DNA of 64,000 nt, from NCBI GenBank assembly GCA_017547245.1, contig JAFYQD010000009.1, positions 16,802 through 80,801 on the forward strand, in the 5' to 3' direction. Each line of letters starts with the position of its first letter. The stretch's first letter is position 1. Shown in pieces: positions 47,438-64,000 of the stretch. This DNA comes from Oscillospiraceae bacterium (lineage in GTDB: Bacteria > Bacillota > Clostridia > Oscillospirales > Ruminococcaceae). The position numbers were made by a program, and so were the translations under genes. The notes under the pieces were generated by a model, which worked only from the letters and a program-made list of their open reading frames with translations, did not search any database and was not told the origin of the DNA.

Positions 47438-48511
47438 TTAAGCCCCCAACAAACTTTGGTCAAAGCTGAACAGGGTGCTGTTTATTTCAAAGATGTCATA
47501 GTTCTTCTGCATGATGAAGTATTCAATGATAATGTCAAATTTGCTGCTGCGGCTAAGAGCATATCCTGCTCGACCGATAAAATCTTTGGTCTCCTCTAAA
47601 TCCAGTTCCAACGCAATGGCAAAGGCAAGGGCAGTTGTCTTGGATGGTTTGTAGTTGGGATTGTTGCGAATTTTAGAAAACAGCTTACGATCCACATTGG
47701 CTTTTTTATAGATTTCCGAATCCTTTTTTCCGGTGCGGTCGATCAGCTTCAGCAAAGTTTCGGAAAATCCTGCATCGGTCTGCTCCAACAGATCATCCAA
47801 TTCATTCTTTGCCTTGACCTCGCCGTACACACCGGGAGCCGCACACATAGGGGCGCAGCACTCATCCATAACCTCCAGCCTGCGGCTGCGGAACCGTTTC
47901 TGCAGCGTCTCTTCTATCTGCTGCAGCGGCATTTCATCCACCGCATGCTTATCGGTCACGCCATATTCATCCAGAATCTTTTCCTGAACATAGTTGGCGT
48001 CTATGTAACTGGCGATCGAATGGAACAGCTTTTGGGAAAGCTCAAAGGCGGAACTGCCGAAGATAACCAAATATATCTCCATTTCATGGTCAACCAAAAA
48101 GCTGCTGAAAGCATTGAGGGCGATCTGTAAAGCCAGCGGTTTGGGAAAGCCATGGTTACCGGCTGAAAGCAAAGGGAAGGCAATTGACTCGCAGCCTTGT
48201 TCCAAAGCCGCCTGCAAAGCGCGGTCATAGCATTGGCGAAGCTGTTGTTCTTCCCCAAAGCTGCCGCCCCTCCACACGGGTCCAACAGCGTGGATTACAT
48301 AGTTTGCATCCAAGCCAAAACCTGGTGTAACGGCCACATCGCCTACGGAAATATCACCAACCATCTGACGGGCTGACAACAGCTGCGGCCCTGCCTTTTT
48401 ATGAATGCCGGCATCACAGCCATAGCCGACCACCGGTTTGGGGTTGGCTGTATTGACAATGGCATCCACCTGCACATTCACAATGTCGTTTCTGACAATT
48501 TGGATAGGCAT
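47438..48511 (-). CDS. Macro-domain (ADP-ribose-binding) protein with C-terminal helical/HTH-like region
   Basis: 357 residues. The N-terminal ~165 form a macro domain: VRNDIVNVQVDAIVNTANPK, GYGCDAGIHKKAG, VIHAVGPVW, and SIAFPLLSAGNHGFPKPLAL, expected to bind or hydrolyse ADP-ribose derivatives. The C-terminal ~120 residues (SETLLKLIDRTGKKDSEIYK, then KANVDRKLFSKIRNN and KTTALAFAIALELD) resemble a DNA-binding helix-turn-helix region found fused to macro domains in Firmicutes. With the VWA gene downstream it makes a small locus of the kind seen in stress and conflict systems. ATG 48511 is preceded by GGGAGG. Confidence 0.88.
   Translation of the reverse strand: MPIQIVRNDIVNVQVDAIVNTANPKPVVGYGCDAGIHKKAGPQLLSARQMVGDISVGDVAVTPGFGLDANYVIHAVGPVWRGGSFGEEQQLRQCYDRALQAALEQGCESIAFPLLSAGNHGFPKPLALQIALNAFSSFLVDHEMEIYLVIFGSSAFELSQKLFHSIASYIDANYVQEKILDEYGVTDKHAVDEMPLQQIEETLQKRFRSRRLEVMDECCAPMCAAPGVYGEVKAKNELDDLLEQTDAGFSETLLKLIDRTGKKDSEIYKKANVDRKLFSKIRNNPNYKPSKTTALAFAIALELDLEETKDFIGRAGYALSRSSKFDIIIEYFIMQKNYDIFEINSTLFSFDQSLLGA
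47445..47464. repeat. 20-bp direct repeat, copy 2
   Basis: Identical to 47197-47216; here it is the end of the macro-domain gene. The two copies are 248 bp apart and bracket the possible 30-residue frame. Confidence 0.85.
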
Positions 48512-53754: not shown

Positions 53755-54690
53755 ATGAACTACATCACTGCAAACCAAGCCGCAGAGCGTTGGGGCGTTT
53801 CCGAAGGAATTGTCCGCCGCTATTGCAGAGACGAACGTATCCCAGATGCCTATCAGGAGTTTGGCACCTGGTACATACCCGAGAACGCAGTCAGGCCCAC
53901 ACGAAAGAAAAAGGAAGCCTCTCAGCTTCCCAAACTTCTTAAAACACTTATCAAGCAGCGCGACGGCAGAATGTATCGCGGCCTCTATGAATACCTGCAG
54001 ATCAATATGGTCTACAGCAACGGACGCATGGCCAGCAATCGACTCACCCGTGATCAGATTGAAGTGTTGTATAAGACCGACCGGATTTTCACCAACAAAG
54101 AGTCCATCAAGGTCAATGACATCATCGAAGCTCGCAACCACTTCCTCTGTGTGGATATGATCCTGTCCAACGCCATGAAGCCGCTGACACAGACTTTCAT
54201 CCAGCAACTGCAGTCCACCCTGCTCAGTGAGAGTTGTCGCCATAAGCGCCATGCTCCCATTGCCGCCGGGTATCGCAAGACAGCTACGACACCCAAATTT
54301 GGTAAGACTACGCCACCTACAGATATCTCCGCTGCCATCAATCAGTTGTTCAAGGAGTACGAAGCGCAGAAAGATATCGGCTTCCACGAGATTCTGGATC
54401 TCCATGTACGGTTTGAGCGCATCCGTCCCTTTGAAGATTGCAACGGTCGCATTGGACGTCTGTTGATGCTCAAGGAATGCCTGCGGCACGAGGTCACGCC
54501 CTTCGTCATAGACGATAAGCGCCGCACCGGCTATCTGGATGGCATCCGTCAGTGGGACGAAGATCGCAGCATTCTGATGGATGTCTGTATGGAAGCTCAG
54601 ATGCGGTTCGAGGCTCAGATCGCCCTGCAGGGCCTCCTGGAGTGCCAGTCGCAACACATGAGAGCCTATCACAAAGGAGGTAGTCGATAA
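53755..54690 (+). CDS. Fic-fold protein with N-terminal HTH, apparently lacking the catalytic His
   Basis: 311 residues. The N-terminus (about 1-48) is an excisionase/MerR-like DNA-binding helix (NQAAERWGVSEGIVRRYCRD, then FGTWYIPENAV). The rest is a Fic domain; Fic enzymes normally AMPylate proteins using the motif HPFxDGNGRxxR. Here that segment reads HVRFERIRPFEDCNGRIGR: the His is Arg and Gly is Cys, while Asn-Gly-Arg-x-x-Arg stay. The inhibitory helix, usually S-x-x-x-E-[GN], reads SNGRMASN, so the Glu is also gone. The protein may be an inactive or repurposed Fic. ATG 53755 follows GAAAGGAACG. It overlaps the DUF6061-like gene by one base. Confidence 0.85.
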   Translation: MNYITANQAAERWGVSEGIVRRYCRDERIPDAYQEFGTWYIPENAVRPTRKKKEASQLPKLLKTLIKQRDGRMYRGLYEYLQINMVYSNGRMASNRLTRDQIEVLYKTDRIFTNKESIKVNDIIEARNHFLCVDMILSNAMKPLTQTFIQQLQSTLLSESCRHKRHAPIAAGYRKTATTPKFGKTTPPTDISAAINQLFKEYEAQKDIGFHEILDLHVRFERIRPFEDCNGRIGRLLMLKECLRHEVTPFVIDDKRRTGYLDGIRQWDEDRSILMDVCMEAQMRFEAQIALQGLLECQSQHMRAYHKGGSR

Positions 54691-57948: not shown

Positions 57949-58022
57949 TTGACCAGTATTGGTTGCAACCGCCATTATCGTATGCTATATTGAGATAAAA
58001 TATTGTCCGCGATACTGGTCAA
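57949..58022. promoter_or_regulatory. Paired operator half-sites between the XRE and SLOG genes
   Basis: TTGACCAGTAT (57949-57959) and its exact complement ATACTGGTCAA (58012-58022) flank the promoter, 52 bp apart. Inside are CATACGAT/ATCGTATG (57942-57949, 57977-57984) and the palindrome GGTTGCAACC (57961-57970). This looks like a two-operator looping arrangement. Confidence 0.7.
57963..57991 (+). promoter_or_regulatory. Promoter of the SLOG-domain gene
   Basis: TTGCAA (57963-57968), 17-bp spacer, TATATT (57986-57991), with operator half-sites on both sides. Confidence 0.65.
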
Positions 58023-58044
58023 CCGCGTGACGGAGGGAAGAAAA

Positions 58045-58482
58045 ATGTCTGCCTGCACTTTCTTTGGGCATCGTGATTGTCCGAGTTCAATTAAGCCCAA
58101 ACTGCGTGAGGTTCTTGTTGATCTAATCGAGAACCATGCCGTAGATATGTTTTACGTTGGCCAACAAGGAGCATTTGATGGGATTGTGCGCTCTGTTCTG
58201 AAAGAGTTGGTATCGGTATACCCCCACATCCATTATGCCGTTGTTCTGGAGCGTTTGCCCCCAAAACGAGACAAGTTCGATACCCGCAATTACTCCGACA
58301 CCATGCTCCCGGAGGGCATTGAAACTGTCCATCCGCGTTTTGCTATCTCATGGCGCAACAAATGGATGATAAAGCAATCCGACTATGTCGTGACCTACAT
58401 TACCCATTCCTGGGGCGGCGCCGCACAATTTGCAGAGAAAGCAACACGGCATAAAAAAACTGTCATCAATCTTTCTCTATAA
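58045..58482 (+). CDS. SLOG-domain protein (YpsA/DprA-like Rossmann fold)
   Basis: 145 residues. ACTFFGHRDCPSSIKPKLRE at the start, YVGQQGAFDGIVRSVLKEL in the middle (Gly-rich ligand loop) and VVTYITHSWGGAAQFAEKA near the end match the SLOG superfamily seen in YpsA and in nucleotide-signal-linked conflict systems. Its ligand could be a nucleotide or ADP-ribose derivative (inference). No effector is fused to it. GGAGGG at 58032 precedes ATG 58045; the XRE repressor gene is divergent. Confidence 0.82.
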   Translation: MSACTFFGHRDCPSSIKPKLREVLVDLIENHAVDMFYVGQQGAFDGIVRSVLKELVSVYPHIHYAVVLERLPPKRDKFDTRNYSDTMLPEGIETVHPRFAISWRNKWMIKQSDYVVTYITHSWGGAAQFAEKATRHKKTVINLSL

Positions 58483-58746: not shown

Positions 58747-58896
58747 ATGAATCGAAATTATTTTTGGCTTTATGCTAATATTGATGATGTAATCGATATT
58801 GAGCCATATACAGAAAAGGAGGATACAATCGATGACGGAGCAGATGTTACTTCGGTTTGCGATGATTCTGCAAAGCCAAGCTCCCAGTACTCTTAA
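58747..58896 (+). CDS. Small acidic protein, 49 aa, overlapping the PIN-like gene
   Basis: ATG 58747 sits behind a strong AGGAGG (58737-58742) and is followed by 49 sense codons: MNRNYFWLYANIDDVIDIEP, then a run of Asp/Glu, ending SSQYS. Its last 65 bp overlap the PIN-like gene in another frame, and the PIN gene's own ribosome site (58816-58822) is inside it. The arrangement suggests either a leader peptide that couples translation or a small antitoxin-like acidic partner. I recognise no family. Confidence 0.5.
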   Translation: MNRNYFWLYANIDDVIDIEPYTEKEDTIDDGADVTSVCDDSAKPSSQYS

Positions 58897-60862
58897 CAAA
58901 TATATCTGTAAGCTTGTTGAAGCAGTCCTATTGGAGCAACAGGCAGGCTTAACCCTGTATGCTCTTAGTCAGGCAATCAATTCTCAATTTAACCTCGCTT
59001 TTACAGAAGAAGAAATTGAGACAGCCATCGCCAAAAAGGGACAAACTCGAATTCTGCTTGTTAATGGAGTGTATTCGCTCTCACCTTCCACCATTCAATC
59101 GCTCGCTGCGCAATCCTCTCTATCCGGAAAGCTGGATTCCATCATCTCAAAATTTGTTAGCACAGAGGCAATTGATGCGCCTGTCTCTGATGTGACATCG
59201 CTTTTGCTAAAATACTTGTATTATTGCTTTAACTCAAATGTTGATAATCTCCTATCTCTGTTTGAAGAGAAAATTACATACAGCGTAAAATCGTTTGAAG
59301 CAAGCACCGAGGAGATTTCGATTATTAACGCTTTTGTCGCATGGGATGATAGCGAAAAAGACGCTATTGTCTACAGTTTGATCGCAACATGTTACGAGTA
59401 CTGCATGCTTACAATCAAAAAAGACAACATTCTTTCGGCTGAACTTTTCAAAGGGAAACGCTTTTATTTGGACGCAAATATCATATTTAGAATGGCTGGT
59501 GTTAATAATGAGGAGCGCAAAACTGTTACCACAGGCTTTGTACATCATTGTCAAAAAGCCGGCATCGAACTTTATTGCACAAGTACAACATTAGATGAGG
59601 TCTATCGTGTAATTACGTCCCAGATAGAGTTCATCCGCGGCATCGCGGGCTCATCAATGCCTGTTAGTAGCAGTGTACTTGAGTCAATTAATCCCTCTAT
59701 GGAGATTAATGACTTCTACAAAATATACTACGAATGGTGTCTTGTACCCGGGAACAAATCCGGAGATTACGTTTCATTTAATCGTTACCTTTTTGATCTT
59801 GTGCAGGACACTTTGCGTCAGCTAAAAATCAAAGAATCAAGTGCTTATAAAGTCGGTTCGTCATCAAAGCCTTTTGCTGAGCACACAACAAGCCTAAAGG
59901 CATACAAAAACAATAAGCGCAAGTGGCGATACACTTCCACCGCTTCCGCAGAGACCGATATTACCAACATACTGGATACCTTAGCCTGGCGAAAAGGGAC
60001 AGGCTCAAGCATTTGGCAAACGAATGATTTCATCGTATCTGCCGATCAGCTATTAATCGGTTGGACGGATAACGCATTCCCCGGCGTCCCCATCGTCGTC
60101 CTCCCCAGCGTATGGCTCTCAATTATTCTGCGTTTTACAGGACGCACCGATGATGACTACAAGTCATTCTGCCTTTTCCTAACCCAACGGCAGCATATTG
60201 GTGATAGCAAATCTATTGATCCCATTCAGCTGTTGCGGAACATCAATTCCAAAACAAGCCAAACAGAAATTAAAGAACAAATCATTGTCGAAATCACGCA
60301 GAACAAAGCTCAATATACGTTTGAAACAGCCGATGACTATGACGCAAACACAGATCGTGCATTTGATAAAGTTCTGGAAGAGTTCTATGGCAAAACGGAA
60401 CAACAGATCAATGATATGCGCGAGGAAATGCGTCAGCAGTTGTCATCCTTGGCCAATGATTCTCAAGAACGAATTGAGGAATGTACACGAATAAGTGCAG
60501 AGGCAGAGCGTGAAAGAACATTGGTTACGCTTTCGAAGAAGCAGGCTGCAGATATAGTGAGCAAGTTCAGAAAAATCAGCAACTATGGGTGGATACTATA
60601 TCTTTTGGCAGGTCTAATGCTCATAGCAGGAATTTGTATCTATGCATTCGAGATATCTCCGCTCTATCCATGGCTCTTAAGCATTCTTCCTACAAAACTT
60701 CATTCTGTAGAGGTCTTTATGGCCGTTTGGGCATTTACCTCTGTTGGAATTGGCTTAATTTTTGCTGCGTTTAACAAAGTAATAGCGCTTCTTGGCAGCG
60801 AGAAAAGAGAAGCGGATTTGTATGATCGCTTCTACAAGAAAAACAAAGGCATGATCTCCTAA
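58832..60862 (+). CDS. PIN-like domain protein with coiled coil and two C-terminal membrane helices
   Basis: 676 residues, family not recognised. The start ATG 58832 has AAGGAGG nine bases upstream; an upstream TTG at 58799 is rejected. Residues 1-100 look like a winged-helix/helical region. A PIN-like nuclease fold is suggested from about 208: KRFYLDANIIFRMAG (Asp 214), TSTTLDEVYRV (Glu 256), TDITNILDTL, and NDFIVSADQLLIG (Asp 399, 405), the usual acidic residues of this RNase fold. About 515-575 is a likely coiled coil rich in Glu/Gln. Two hydrophobic helices (about 587-605 and 627-648) end the protein, so the nuclease part would face the cytoplasm, anchored to the membrane. AT-rich composition. 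Could be a defence effector (inference). Confidence 0.72.
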   Translation: MTEQMLLRFAMILQSQAPSTLNKYICKLVEAVLLEQQAGLTLYALSQAINSQFNLAFTEEEIETAIAKKGQTRILLVNGVYSLSPSTIQSLAAQSSLSGKLDSIISKFVSTEAIDAPVSDVTSLLLKYLYYCFNSNVDNLLSLFEEKITYSVKSFEASTEEISIINAFVAWDDSEKDAIVYSLIATCYEYCMLTIKKDNILSAELFKGKRFYLDANIIFRMAGVNNEERKTVTTGFVHHCQKAGIELYCTSTTLDEVYRVITSQIEFIRGIAGSSMPVSSSVLESINPSMEINDFYKIYYEWCLVPGNKSGDYVSFNRYLFDLVQDTLRQLKIKESSAYKVGSSSKPFAEHTTSLKAYKNNKRKWRYTSTASAETDITNILDTLAWRKGTGSSIWQTNDFIVSADQLLIGWTDNAFPGVPIVVLPSVWLSIILRFTGRTDDDYKSFCLFLTQRQHIGDSKSIDPIQLLRNINSKTSQTEIKEQIIVEITQNKAQYTFETADDYDANTDRAFDKVLEEFYGKTEQQINDMREEMRQQLSSLANDSQERIEECTRISAEAERERTLVTLSKKQAADIVSKFRKISNYGWILYLLAGLMLIAGICIYAFEISPLYPWLLSILPTKLHSVEVFMAVWAFTSVGIGLIFAAFNKVIALLGSEKREADLYDRFYKKNKGMIS

Positions 60863-60966: not shown

Positions 60967-62481
60967 TCAACCTTTATTTCCAGAAAAATCTTCTACCAAA
61001 GCGTTAATAAGAGGATCTGCATCTCCACCTAACTTATCGATAATAACACGGAAAACTTGTTCGAGAATCTTTTTCTCTGTTTTATTGAGCGTTTTGAGAG
61101 CATTGATCGCTTTATACGCTGTCGCGCCTTTGAGGGTACCAATAAGCATGTCCAGTTCATCAAATGCAATTTCCTGATAATATGCCCCGGACTCATCTGC
61201 AATTGCGGAATTAGAAACCGCTTTTTGTACAGATGATAGTTTTTGTGAAAGTCGGGTTTTCGCGGTAATATCGGCACCATTTTCGATGGCATCTACCACA
61301 TCCCGAACAGTCCCTTTGGCTCTTTCCAGTTCCTCCGACAATTCCCGGTTTCGCTTCAAAGATGCCGCTCTTATTTCCTTCGTGATCTCCGCCGCGACCT
61401 TTTGCAACTGTTCAGTTAACACAAAATAAGCAGGTGTCTTCTCAAAATTATCGCGACGAGCATTGGGGATCAATTGTGTGCTTGAAACAAAAACTTCACC
61501 GATTGACCACCCATTAAAGCGAGCATCCTTAAAAACAGTGTTCAGCGTTTGTCCATCGCCAATTTGAATATTTCCTTTTCTTAAACGAATGCCCTTAACA
61601 CTCTTGTCGTAAATACTTCCATGGTAGTTTGTTTTTCCGAGCCAAGCTATTGCCAATACGCTACCATCATTTTGCTTAATTTTGACAAGTTCAATATCAC
61701 TCATACTATCAAACAAGTTTTTTCCTTTATCGACCAAAAAGCTATCTTTATAAGGCTTATAGATCGGCTTGGCAGTATTGCCAAAGGAAACAAGGATATT
61801 GTAAGAATTAACGTCAAGTCCTTCGGTCCGCAAACGTCTGGTAATCTCCTCTCCCCAAACAAAGGCATCCGGATCATACGGAACCGGTGCATTTTGAGAA
61901 ATATAAGAAATTACATTCTCGTAGTCATTAAGTCCAGACGCTTCATCTACCTCGTCCAAGATAACCCTAAAATAGTGAGATGCGCTGTTTTCTGGATATT
62001 GCTCAACAGAATATACTTGTCCAAGAACATCGGTAATCGTAACGTCTCTGTCATCTTTAGCGGTCAAGAGCTGTGACAGCTTTCTGGAATCGATCACTAT
62101 TCTGGTTCCAACATTTTCTGCCGTGACACTGGTTTCAAAAGTTAGTTTCGAGCAATACCCCAGCGCAGCCAATCTGCCAATACCACGGAAGCCTCTGTCA
62201 AACTCAGATGTTTTTTTAGAATTACCGATGCTTATCAGAGTCTGTTCTGCCTCCTGGGCAGAAAGTCCGGTTCCGTTATCAGAAATAACGATGGATCTTT
62301 CTGCCGGAGACAAGTGAATGACGATCTCTGCAACTTTTTCTTCCAGAAGCCCTTGACGCACCGCATTATCAATCGCATCTGCAGCATTCTGTATATACTC
62401 ACGAAAAACCACATATGGATCTGCATACATACCGGTTGTCAACGATTCAAGCGTGTGCTTTCCTATAATAATATTGCTCAT
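60967..62481 (-). CDS. Hsp90/GHKL-type ATPase domain protein
   Basis: 504 residues. The N-terminal ~190 form a GHKL ATPase: N-box FREYIQNAADAID (Glu 28, Asn 32), G1 box ISDNGTGLSA, and G2 GFRGIGRLAALG. The middle domain has QLIPNARRDNFEKTP near residues 345-360, a segment typical of HtpG-like clients that read the gamma-phosphate. The C-terminal ~150 residues are helical with coiled-coil character and no known signature. It differs from HtpG (about 620-650 residues) in length and C-terminus. It starts one base after the stop of the radical-SAM-like gene, with GGAGGG inside that gene, so the two form one translational unit. Defence-related Hsp90-like ATPases are known; this exact pair is not one I recognise. 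Confidence 0.85.
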   Translation of the reverse strand: MSNIIIGKHTLESLTTGMYADPYVVFREYIQNAADAIDNAVRQGLLEEKVAEIVIHLSPAERSIVISDNGTGLSAQEAEQTLISIGNSKKTSEFDRGFRGIGRLAALGYCSKLTFETSVTAENVGTRIVIDSRKLSQLLTAKDDRDVTITDVLGQVYSVEQYPENSASHYFRVILDEVDEASGLNDYENVISYISQNAPVPYDPDAFVWGEEITRRLRTEGLDVNSYNILVSFGNTAKPIYKPYKDSFLVDKGKNLFDSMSDIELVKIKQNDGSVLAIAWLGKTNYHGSIYDKSVKGIRLRKGNIQIGDGQTLNTVFKDARFNGWSIGEVFVSSTQLIPNARRDNFEKTPAYFVLTEQLQKVAAEITKEIRAASLKRNRELSEELERAKGTVRDVVDAIENGADITAKTRLSQKLSSVQKAVSNSAIADESGAYYQEIAFDELDMLIGTLKGATAYKAINALKTLNKTEKKILEQVFRVIIDKLGGDADPLINALVEDFSGNKG

Positions 62482-62482
62482 G

Positions 62483-64000
62483 TTATCCCTCCAGGAATTG
62501 CGAGAACTTTATCTGAATATTCTTGAAAATAGCTTCAGATGTGCTGTTTAGCAATTTCTGGCCAAGCTCTTGGTCATTCATGGTCGCAATTTTTTGCTTA
62601 AAGGCTTCAAAGTTCTGTTCAAGCAAAGTAGCAAGATTCAGCATATTCAATTCACTAATCGCTTTTCGAGCAACGCGATGATCATACTCATTAAGAATCT
62701 TTACATCAACAAAACGACGGTAAATCCTTATCAGCTCAAAATCAACATAGCCGATACCATTTTTCATACAAATGGCATGCCACTTTTGAAGTTGTTTGTC
62801 CGCATCGTAGTCGGTTTCACTCAGATTATTTAGGATATCTCGTACACCTACCTGTCCAAAAAACGAGACAAAATTCTTAAATGGACTTTGAAGTGTGCTG
62901 CCACAAATAAACTCAATGATATCTTTGTAGATATCCGGGAACTCAACCGTTATATAATTTTTCAACAAAGAGAATGTTGGCGAGGCCGGTTCGAGCATTC
63001 CCATAAGGGCAATGACTCGGGGAGTTGTCAAATACAAAAGATATAGCTTTTTGTGGAGATCCGAGGGAATTCCCAACAGCTTTTCAGGCAAAAATTCGTT
63101 GTCTCCGATCAGGGCGACAAACGGGTCAACATTCCCCTCAAGCTGGTCATAAAGGCGATTCCATTCATTAATTCTGCGCTGATTCTTGTCCCAAGCACTC
63201 TTACGGATAGCAAGCTCCTCTGCAGTTTCAGTTGTTCTGCCTCTACCACCCTCACTAAAATGTCCGCGAGCGGCAATCAGTTTATCTGGCATACACAGGT
63301 AACGAACAAATTCATCTGCATCTTTGCCAAAGTCCGCTTCAAAAAACGATCTGCTGCCAACACCCTTGCCTTGCGTAGGGATTAGCATACACTGTACAGC
63401 TCTCAAAAATTTTGCATTCCACTTTGAACCAACATAGCCACGCTCATGGGCGGACAGCGGAATATAACGCATAGGGAAAGAAAATGCGCTGATTCTTGAT
63501 CCTTCCGGTAAACCTTCGTTCATTTCGTCCTTCAAATCAAGAGTAATCCGCATTCTGTTATACAGATCCGCAGGTGTATCTGCAGCATACTGATGGCCCT
63601 TACCGCCAAAATCTTCACTGTTGTAAAGAACATAGTTTGACAGTTCCGTTATTCCATATTTCGCGCAAAGTCTCAACGCGCGCTCATAGGTCTCACGATC
63701 TTCAATATGGTCAAATGCAATTCTCGCGGGGCGCAACGCAATTTCACCTAATCTCTTTGCTTTTGCCTCGGTTAAAAACATTGCATCAAGGCCCTGGTTA
63801 AAGTCAACGTATCGGCGAACGGTCTTTCCGCTCTTAGGATTCACATAGGTGGCTCCCTTACCAAAACCAGCCTCGATAATATCGTCAATAATTTGATTGA
63901 ACTTGGGAGAGCGCAAAACATTGTTATCCATCAGGAGCAAATCTTTTTGCGGACCATACTTTGCATCAATCTTTTTGATTTTTTCTTTGATATCCATATA
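62483..64000 (-). CDS. Radical-SAM-type protein, N-terminus beyond the right edge
   Basis: At least 504 residues; the frame is open to the window edge and an ATG at 63997 is probably internal. The visible part starts in the barrel after the expected CxxxCxxC motif: LLLMDNNVLRSPKFNQIIDD, VDFNQGLDAMFLTEAKAKRL and RPARIAFDHIED are typical of radical-SAM TIM barrels, and FSFPMRYIPLSAHERGYVG follows. The cluster-binding cysteines themselves must lie outside, so the assignment is by the rest of the fold. The C-terminal ~250 residues (about 255-504) are of unknown function. It precedes the Hsp90-like ATPase with a one-base gap; the two products likely act together. Confidence 0.72.
   Translation of the reverse strand, partial: YMDIKEKIKKIDAKYGPQKDLLLMDNNVLRSPKFNQIIDDIIEAGFGKGATYVNPKSGKTVRRYVDFNQGLDAMFLTEAKAKRLGEIALRPARIAFDHIEDRETYERALRLCAKYGITELSNYVLYNSEDFGGKGHQYAADTPADLYNRMRITLDLKDEMNEGLPEGSRISAFSFPMRYIPLSAHERGYVGSKWNAKFLRAVQCMLIPTQGKGVGSRSFFEADFGKDADEFVRYLCMPDKLIAARGHFSEGGRGRTTETAEELAIRKSAWDKNQRRINEWNRLYDQLEGNVDPFVALIGDNEFLPEKLLGIPSDLHKKLYLLYLTTPRVIALMGMLEPASPTFSLLKNYITVEFPDIYKDIIEFICGSTLQSPFKNFVSFFGQVGVRDILNNLSETDYDADKQLQKWHAICMKNGIGYVDFELIRIYRRFVDVKILNEYDHRVARKAISELNMLNLATLLEQNFEAFKQKIATMNDQELGQKLLNSTSEAIFKNIQIKFSQFLEG

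Follow-up and report, generated by a model that had tools for sequence, protein, structure and literature searches.

A radical-SAM protein with an Hsp90-like ATPase: a candidate self-marking core joined to four types of restriction-like module

Self marks in prokaryotic immunity include methylation, phosphorothioation and 7-deazaguanines. DISARM has a DNA methyltransferase, DrmM. A 64,000-nucleotide stretch of a contig from an Oscillospiraceae bacterium (JAFYQD010000009.1, positions 16,802 to 80,801; the window, meaning the whole stretch) ends in two minus-strand genes encoding a radical-SAM (rSAM) protein and an Hsp90-like ATPase. A sequence-only reading of the window had taken the pair for a defence or modification system without a named match. 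That proposal is supported, with defence suggested by genomic context, and judged by sequence it can be extended: the pair is the tightly coupled, co-varying core of a larger operon, it has repeatedly switched among four types of module, and in related operons methylase-like genes stand in its place. The rSAM and the ATPase may form the self-marking arm of a restriction-like immunity in which their mark replaces DNA methylation, a reading to which we assign a probability of about one half.

Among named systems, DISARM shares DrmA (2.2e-170) and DrmB (1.8e-56; one representative each) with relatives of the pair here called module III; the window's own module lies outside the contig. Module III differs in having the rSAM and the Hsp90-like ATPase with a NERD-helicase (RTasNERD-Hel, 3.4e-71), and a methylase was confirmed in only one of its 19 loci, downstream of the pair. 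No match to DrmC was found among representatives of the five partner families tested, and PADLOC would probably label a module III locus as partial DISARM. Clusters for 7-deazaguanine modification (Dpd) can carry QueE, itself a radical-SAM enzyme. An NCBIfam scan listed no match to the QueE model for four full-length rSAM proteins. The DGQHR protein of the rSAM loci resembles DpdB (1e-15) at 57.5 bits against a cut-off of 300, and the module I SNF2 helicase is nearest ZorD (2.4e-46), then DpdE (1.7e-38) and DrmD in PADLOC. The phosphorothioate systems Dnd, Ssp and Pbe share a PbeC/DndD-like ATPase with module IV (2.9e-131, one representative), and DGQHR (DndB-family) proteins recur in rSAM loci (family match 2.9e-37). 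These systems have the logic of a non-methyl self mark in common with the proposed core, which differs by its rSAM enzyme; one study reports that DndC has no relation to radical-SAM enzymes (PMC10853773).

The YprA-helicase systems ARMADA, BRIGADE and TALON also use DrmA-type helicases, to which TALON adds a NERD nuclease and ARMADA a PglX-like methylase; the main text describing them contains neither 'radical SAM' nor Hsp90 nor GHKL (PMC12458937). MORC and paraMORC are likewise GHKL ATPases encoded in restriction-like operons next to SF2 helicases, of which some are SNF2-type, and are tied to methylases and nucleases (PMC2292703), whereas the ATPase reported here is nearest HtpG among solved structures. 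That the earlier reading could not match the pair to a named system agrees with this mixture of DISARM, HerA, Pbe/Dnd and ZorD/DpdE-like partners, and with the searches of the rSAM family itself: none of the full-length rSAM proteins tested rose above chance or reached a cut-off against any family of PADLOC or NCBIfam. The system is widespread and apparently unnamed; it was not found described in the open-licence papers of PubMed Central, and it may bear a name published elsewhere, in subscription journals or in preprints, most of which fall outside that coverage.

A radical-SAM protein and an Hsp90-like ATPase at a contig end

The window ends with its contig (80,801 bases), and the rSAM gene is truncated at base 64000. 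The tight spacing noticed in the sequence-only reading is borne out: the rSAM stop codon TAA (62485-62483) is followed by a single base (62482) and then by the ATG of the ATPase gene (62481-62479), whose ribosome site, GGAGGG, lies within the upstream gene as had been described (Table 1). The nearest full-length relative (locus L011 of genome G249, the same stretch as L022) has 692 residues, from which about 175 N-terminal residues of the window protein are judged to lie beyond the contig end. In this relative the last cysteine of the motif GCGNKCGFC stands 12 residues ahead of the first window residue (alignment A1), and the CxxxCxxC of the window protein is predicted 34-57 bases outside the contig. 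The ATG at 63997 is an internal codon and not the true start, because these 175 or so residues, cysteine motif included, lie outside. The C-terminal part of about 250 residues singled out earlier is real; it is common to the window protein and its Clostridia relative and far shorter in the other six rows of A1.

Assignment to the radical-SAM superfamily draws on the family as a whole. All 60 aligned relatives carry GCxxxCxxC and 59 of them DFNQGxD, and the phage family phrog_9298, annotated 'radical SAM domain protein', is matched by all nine rSAM homologues scanned, system members and stand-alone proteins alike; the stand-alone members seen are mostly of about 300 residues and have no ATPase. 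Against Pfam Radical_SAM, relatives scored 0.0024 (18.5 bits) and 0.00017 (22.2 bits), below the cut-off of 29.5, and the window fragment alone had no significant Pfam match. Despite these sub-threshold scores, the motif, phrog_9298 and public annotation still place the family in the superfamily, as the earlier reading had it, with the window's own copy of the cysteine motif outside the contig. A Pfam B12-binding match reached 0.026 in one relative, below cut-off, and when profiles were compared, the B12-type rSAM of locus L220 aligned at 97% probability over residues 53-360. The nearest NCBIfam matches of full-length rSAM proteins were weak and fell on B12-binding rSAM enzymes and the RimO/MiaB group, with none at all for L022 and L048. 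Together, the weak NCBIfam matches and the L220 alignment hint at carbon or sulfur transfer.

The ATPase is, by its sequence, of the Hsp90/MutL type. It matches HATPase_c_3 at 43 bits (cut-off 25), and the best match of its family profile to a solved structure is the N-domain of HtpG (2ior). Identification as the HtpG chaperone itself was rejected, at 34.7 bits against a curated cut-off of 371. The N, G1 and G2 boxes reported as intact are so throughout the family: E28, N32 and D35 of the N box, D68 of G1, G97, R99, G100 and G102 of G2, and R343 are identical in all 58 aligned proteins, the window's included, and G70 and G72 are kept in 56 and 57 of them. Given the complete conservation of these key positions other than G70 and G72, the window ATPase should be active.

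Relatives of the window's rSAM part were matched in six of 295 genomes of the order, its own counted and some matches weak, and at least 489 relatives were confirmed in a collection of 84,980 species with one genome each. The 79 rSAM loci compared below derive from the best 80 of the 489 confirmed matches and over-represent near relatives; they cover a Thorarchaeon and bacteria of many phyla. The gene order DGQHR - rSAM - ATPase occurs on plasmids of rhizobia, Novosphingobium and Roseomonas, pNL1 of Novosphingobium aromaticivorans among them. Both whole systems and stand-alone rSAM genes are found on viral contigs: 15 of 80 such loci show at least one of the system genes counted, and the other 65 show none. 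Open reading frames (ORFs) of the loci were called mechanically and compared with each other and with profiles built here, and fragments near contig ends depress the counts.

The two genes are coupled well beyond the window. A same-strand ATPase gene adjoins the rSAM gene in 58 of the 79 loci, in keeping with their earlier treatment as one unit, and 57 of these 58 pairs overlap or sit no more than 30 bp apart. Neither observation named beforehand as contrary to that treatment, a missing upstream cysteine motif or homologues that never adjoin, was borne out in the relatives. The ATPase follows the rSAM in 53 loci and precedes it in five (four of module II, one of module IV); L077, L081 and L087 have an ATPase on both sides. 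Protein distances of the two partners are correlated (r = 0.874, 51 pairs), a value equalled in none of 1000 permutations. From these counts, the rSAM is the core and the ATPase its frequent partner. An ATPase accompanies 49 of 53 rSAM proteins of at least 530 residues and nine of 26 shorter ones (p = 1.3e-7, common descent ignored). Since it is mostly the long rSAM proteins that have an ATPase, their C-terminal extension may be its docking site.

Partner modules and methylase-like genes

Four types of module accompany the pair (Table 1). Eleven of the 79 loci have only a DGQHR gene and seven have no known module, several of these lying near contig ends. Module genes were identified with PADLOC, Pfam and NCBIfam on one or a few representatives and extended by local profiles. 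The HerA and NurA representatives had no Pfam match; HerA is recognized by its motifs, weak PADLOC HerA matches (6.1e-5) and distant homologues annotated near SbcD and SMC genes, NurA by motifs read by eye and its position ahead of HerA. In some loci the ParB set of module I lies on the other side or strand of the rSAM. On a maximum-likelihood tree of the rSAM, the labels I to IV require at least 14 changes; the tree (79 rows, being 78 loci and the window, with L074 left out as too short) was built quickly and contains long branches that in some cases meet. Nearest to the window protein on it are members of both module III (L030, L040) and module I (L024, L022), so that its own module cannot be read from the tree.

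Table 1. Features of the window pair and gene orders of the modules found with its relatives
Feature	Position or gene order	Strand	Basis or remark
Hsp90-like (GHKL) ATPase, 504 aa	60967..62481	-	ORF; Pfam HATPase_c_3 5.8e-11; profile vs structure 2ior 4.2e-13; motif residues compared in 58 proteins
Radical-SAM protein, C-terminal 505 residues	62483..64000	-	ORF open at 64000; 68% identity to G249 protein
GGAGGG ribosome site of ATPase gene, within end of rSAM gene	62487..62492	-	read directly
Module I (28 loci)	ParB - c5 (~137 aa) - SNF2 helicase - ParB - rSAM - ATPase		sometimes DGQHR after the second ParB
Module II (8 loci)	NurA - HerA - ATPase - rSAM		sometimes a second ATPase
Module III (19 loci)	UvrD-like c9 - c11 - DrmA - DrmB - NERD-helicase - rSAM - ATPase		c11 absent from some loci
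Module IV (6 loci)	c20 - helicase - PbeC/DndD-like ATPase - c21 - rSAM		gene set incomplete in some

What occupies the place of the rSAM was assessed in searches that started from the modules (HerA, DrmA and ParB) and not from the rSAM. Starting from HerA gave 16 loci, in 11 of 398 genomes and five viral contigs. Seven carry the ATPase-rSAM pair and show no methylase motif within the operon (in L247 a methylase-motif ORF lies nine ORFs upstream), and the nine without this rSAM all have methylase-like genes. These are an N6-methylase-like gene of 1,083-1,127 residues, a methylase-like gene of 311-431 residues, or both; they are confirmed by Pfam in L220, L222, L223 and L225 and recognized by motif and size in L219, L221, L224, L226 and L251, of which L226 has shorter methylase-like pieces only. 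By hand arithmetic, a split of this kind has a probability of 1/C(16,7), about 9e-5, with kinship ignored.

DrmA-first searches returned 11 loci, from eight of 394 genomes of the order (1e-30) and three of 398 of the phylum (1e-80). Two of them match closely in gene order, with the pair in one and a methylase in the other: L195 reads c9 - c11 - DrmA - DrmB - NERD-helicase - rSAM - ATPase, with an extra ATPase ahead of c9, and in L196 c9 - DrmA - DrmB - NERD-helicase is followed by genes for a D12 adenine methylase (4e-45) and a DndB-family protein, with no separate c11 and no rSAM. A methylase was confirmed near DrmA-DrmB in six of the ten loci without the rSAM (L196-L199, L232, L234), that of L234 being part of a type I restriction set. 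Starting from ParB, the rSAM was found in 15 of 17 loci: in all seven plasmid records, in all eight viral contigs (one with a divergent rSAM) and in neither of two weak genome hits among 398. One locus without it, L227, lies on a contig of only 9.4 kb; the other, L228, is a distant module I locus with an N6_N4 methylase (8.4e-51) near ParB-SNF2. By sequence, then, methylase-like genes stand in the place of the rSAM in HerA loci, in one closely matching DrmA operon and in one distant ParB-SNF2 locus.

Conversely, the rSAM loci hold few such genes. Among unassigned ORFs of at least 180 aa, methylase-like motifs occur in six ORFs in five of the 79 loci; one was profile-checked and confirmed (L037) and the other five are known by motif. 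The confirmed methylase is the single one of module III, where L029 and L041 have motif ORFs only and the other 16 loci no motif ORF of at least 180 aa. Among nine annotated phage and plasmid records of stand-alone rSAM relatives, a DNA methylase lies within 300 bp in three (L186, L240, L244), and in L242 one lies 2.7 kb away. Plasmid searches returned remote relatives of DrmB and HerA (best identities about 30% and 36%). Two plasmid HerA relatives beside SbcD and SMC genes support the HerA reading and add no data on the slot, and two haloarchaeal DrmB loci carry a gene for phospholipase D, with no methylase among their annotated genes.

Several gene orders at these loci recur in their own right. 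L219 and L220 have the same order in two genomes, NurA - HerA - N6 methylase-like - DUF3800 - a clearly B12-type rSAM. L221-L225 and L251 share a NurA-HerA operon with an N6-methylase-like and a second methylase-like gene, which looks like a separate restriction system. The DrmA-DrmB loci L200 and L201 have an Hsp70-like gene and no confirmed methylase. On the archaeal plasmid of L186, a family rSAM gene annotated with an intein homing endonuclease precedes three annotated DNA methyltransferase genes, and in L184, L186, L240 and L242 annotations of phosphoadenosine phosphosulfate reductase or sulfotransferase occur a few kilobases from the stand-alone rSAM.

Proposed self marking and its alternatives

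Under the proposed mechanism, the system would act against mobile DNA: the rSAM, usually aided by the Hsp90-like ATPase, would modify the host's own DNA and so do what a DNA methyltransferase does for DISARM and its kin, and the joined module would recognize, unwind and destroy DNA without the mark. We infer for the ATPase the part of an ATP-driven clamp or loader for the rSAM, perhaps acting on its C-terminal extension. A first guess at the chemistry, prompted by a possible B12-binding-like N-terminal domain, is carbon-centred transfer, for example methylation of an unreactive carbon. DrmAB of DISARM is reported to act on unmodified DNA and to be restrained by host DNA methylation (PMC9142583), and because of this restraint DrmAB operons that lack a methylase may depend on a mark or brake of another kind. 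It is the rSAM-ATPase pair that stands in that place; the same argument applies to HerA-NurA and, more weakly, to ParB-SNF2. A radical-made self mark is proposed because the pair sits where a methylase is expected.

Several findings weigh against this proposal. In L219 and L220 a different, B12-type rSAM lies beside the N6 methylase-like gene (confirmed in L220), so rSAM and methylase can coexist, and L037 has the family rSAM together with a confirmed N6_N4 methylase 1.7 kb downstream. Four of the ten rSAM-less DrmA loci (L200-L202, L233) have no confirmed methylase among the genes checked, which were some of those present, and L200 has one NPPY-motif ORF on motif evidence only; because of these four, DrmAB need not have a methylase. 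N6_Mtase (PF02384) has matches in seven of the eight DrmA genomes and none within the eight DrmA stretches themselves; the methylases confirmed at DrmA loci belong to other families. The members behind the HerA (A6) and ParB (A5) profiles were all linked to an rSAM, which biases the proportions towards such loci, and three of the five HerA and seven of the eight ParB viral contigs had also come up in the search from the rSAM. Six of the nine annotated stand-alone records have no methylase within 300 bp, and a wider association of methylases with viral stand-alone rSAM genes was set aside as not convincing, a motif occurring anywhere in the locus in only 15 of 65. An adjacent ATPase is missing from 21 of the 79 rSAM loci (two with less than 300 bp of contig left). 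The window's own module was not located by searches of its 56%-complete genome with HerA, ParB2 (1e-10) and DrmA (1e-30). Finally, slot replacement can mirror common context instead of common function.

Prokaryotic viperins are radical-SAM enzymes that make antiviral small molecules, and the pair could similarly be an effector or sensor, producing such a molecule or modifying a protein, with the helicase and nuclease modules being separate defence genes that cluster nearby. The seven loci with no known module and the 11 DGQHR-only loci fit this view, as does the role in DNA looping that one study proposed for GHKL ATPases of restriction operons (PMC2292703). Five full-length rSAM proteins had no viperin match in PADLOC at E up to 0.01, a database that we take to contain viperin models, and viperin identity was rejected. 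The occurrence of the rSAM in 15 of 17 ParB-first loci (with a profile biased towards rSAM-linked members) and the methylase-like genes holding its place in related modules also argue against the effector view, which we consider unlikely though the strongest of the rivals. Radical-SAM chemistry on DNA can also run in the other direction: spore photoproduct lyase is a radical-SAM enzyme that reverses a DNA lesion. An rSAM that removes or reverses a modification, or alters invader DNA so as to expose it to the partner module, could account for phage homologues beside phage methylases; it leaves methyltransferases at the same place (L195 versus L196, and the HerA loci) unexplained, and is improbable.

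MiaB modifies tRNA, and the weak nearest profile matches of the rSAM include the MiaB/RimO group, which would suit a system that modifies tRNA or rRNA and targets translation instead of DNA. The partners that can be identified belong to DNA helicase, translocase and nuclease families (c5, c11 and most of c20 being without identity), making this the least probable of the readings weighed here. For the window itself, the pair could be a decayed or orphan remnant without a partner module, given that HerA, ParB2 and DrmA were unmatched elsewhere in its genome. With the assembly 56% complete, the contig stopping within the rSAM gene, both frames open and the ATPase motifs intact, decay has a low probability. 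A second weak rSAM match in the same genome (G000:C6, 1.9e-4) spans model positions 144-186 only.

Returning to self marking, a broader claim is put forward more tentatively, as something short of an even chance: that a radical-SAM enzyme, perhaps B12-dependent, with an Hsp90-like ATPase would make a new class of DNA mark by which at least four restriction modules, each with a mechanism of its own, tell self DNA, the core being passed among modules across many bacterial phyla and at least one archaeon, and marking and destruction being freely interchangeable. If the core marks DNA, a further chemistry would join the self marks of prokaryotic immunity. PADLOC-DB 2.0.0 had no matching model among the proteins tested, though the family is common (at least 489 confirmed relatives). 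The same core with four restriction modules also amounts to a natural experiment on which features of a mark each module reads.

Other genes of the window and of related systems

Further genes accompany some of the related systems. In module IV, c20 (L047, L052, L069, L071) has 1,026-1,308 residues, and that of L069 matches sigma-70 region 4 and the C-terminal domain of RNA polymerase alpha, an odd companion. Alphaproteobacterial systems (L017, L018, L083, L088, L099, L181-L183) adjoin a further gene pair, one PIN-like and the other encoding a second Hsp90-like ATPase, in either orientation.

The window's island holds other candidate defence genes near the pair. Converging on the ATPase gene is a gene for a 687-residue protein (58799-60862) with weak, below-cut-off matches to PIN_3 and DUF6088 and apparent membrane helices at its end, read by eye; it was considered as the PIN-like partner of the rhizobial systems and rejected, as BLASTP found no similarity. 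A pair resembling RmrT (2.6e-26) and RmrA (2.7e-129) at 55065-57015 matches a toxin-antitoxin-type defence unit in PADLOC, presumably RosmerTA. At 53755-54690 lies a gene for a Fic/DOC protein (1.5e-9) that matches the PADLOC candidate PDC-S04 (4e-69), and at 58003-58482 one for a small SLOG/YpsA-like protein (0.0011, below cut-off). A macro-domain-like protein, read by eye, is encoded at 47438-48511; it belongs to cluster 22, which has four members in four loci, one of them at L013 (3288-4334) near a module II system.

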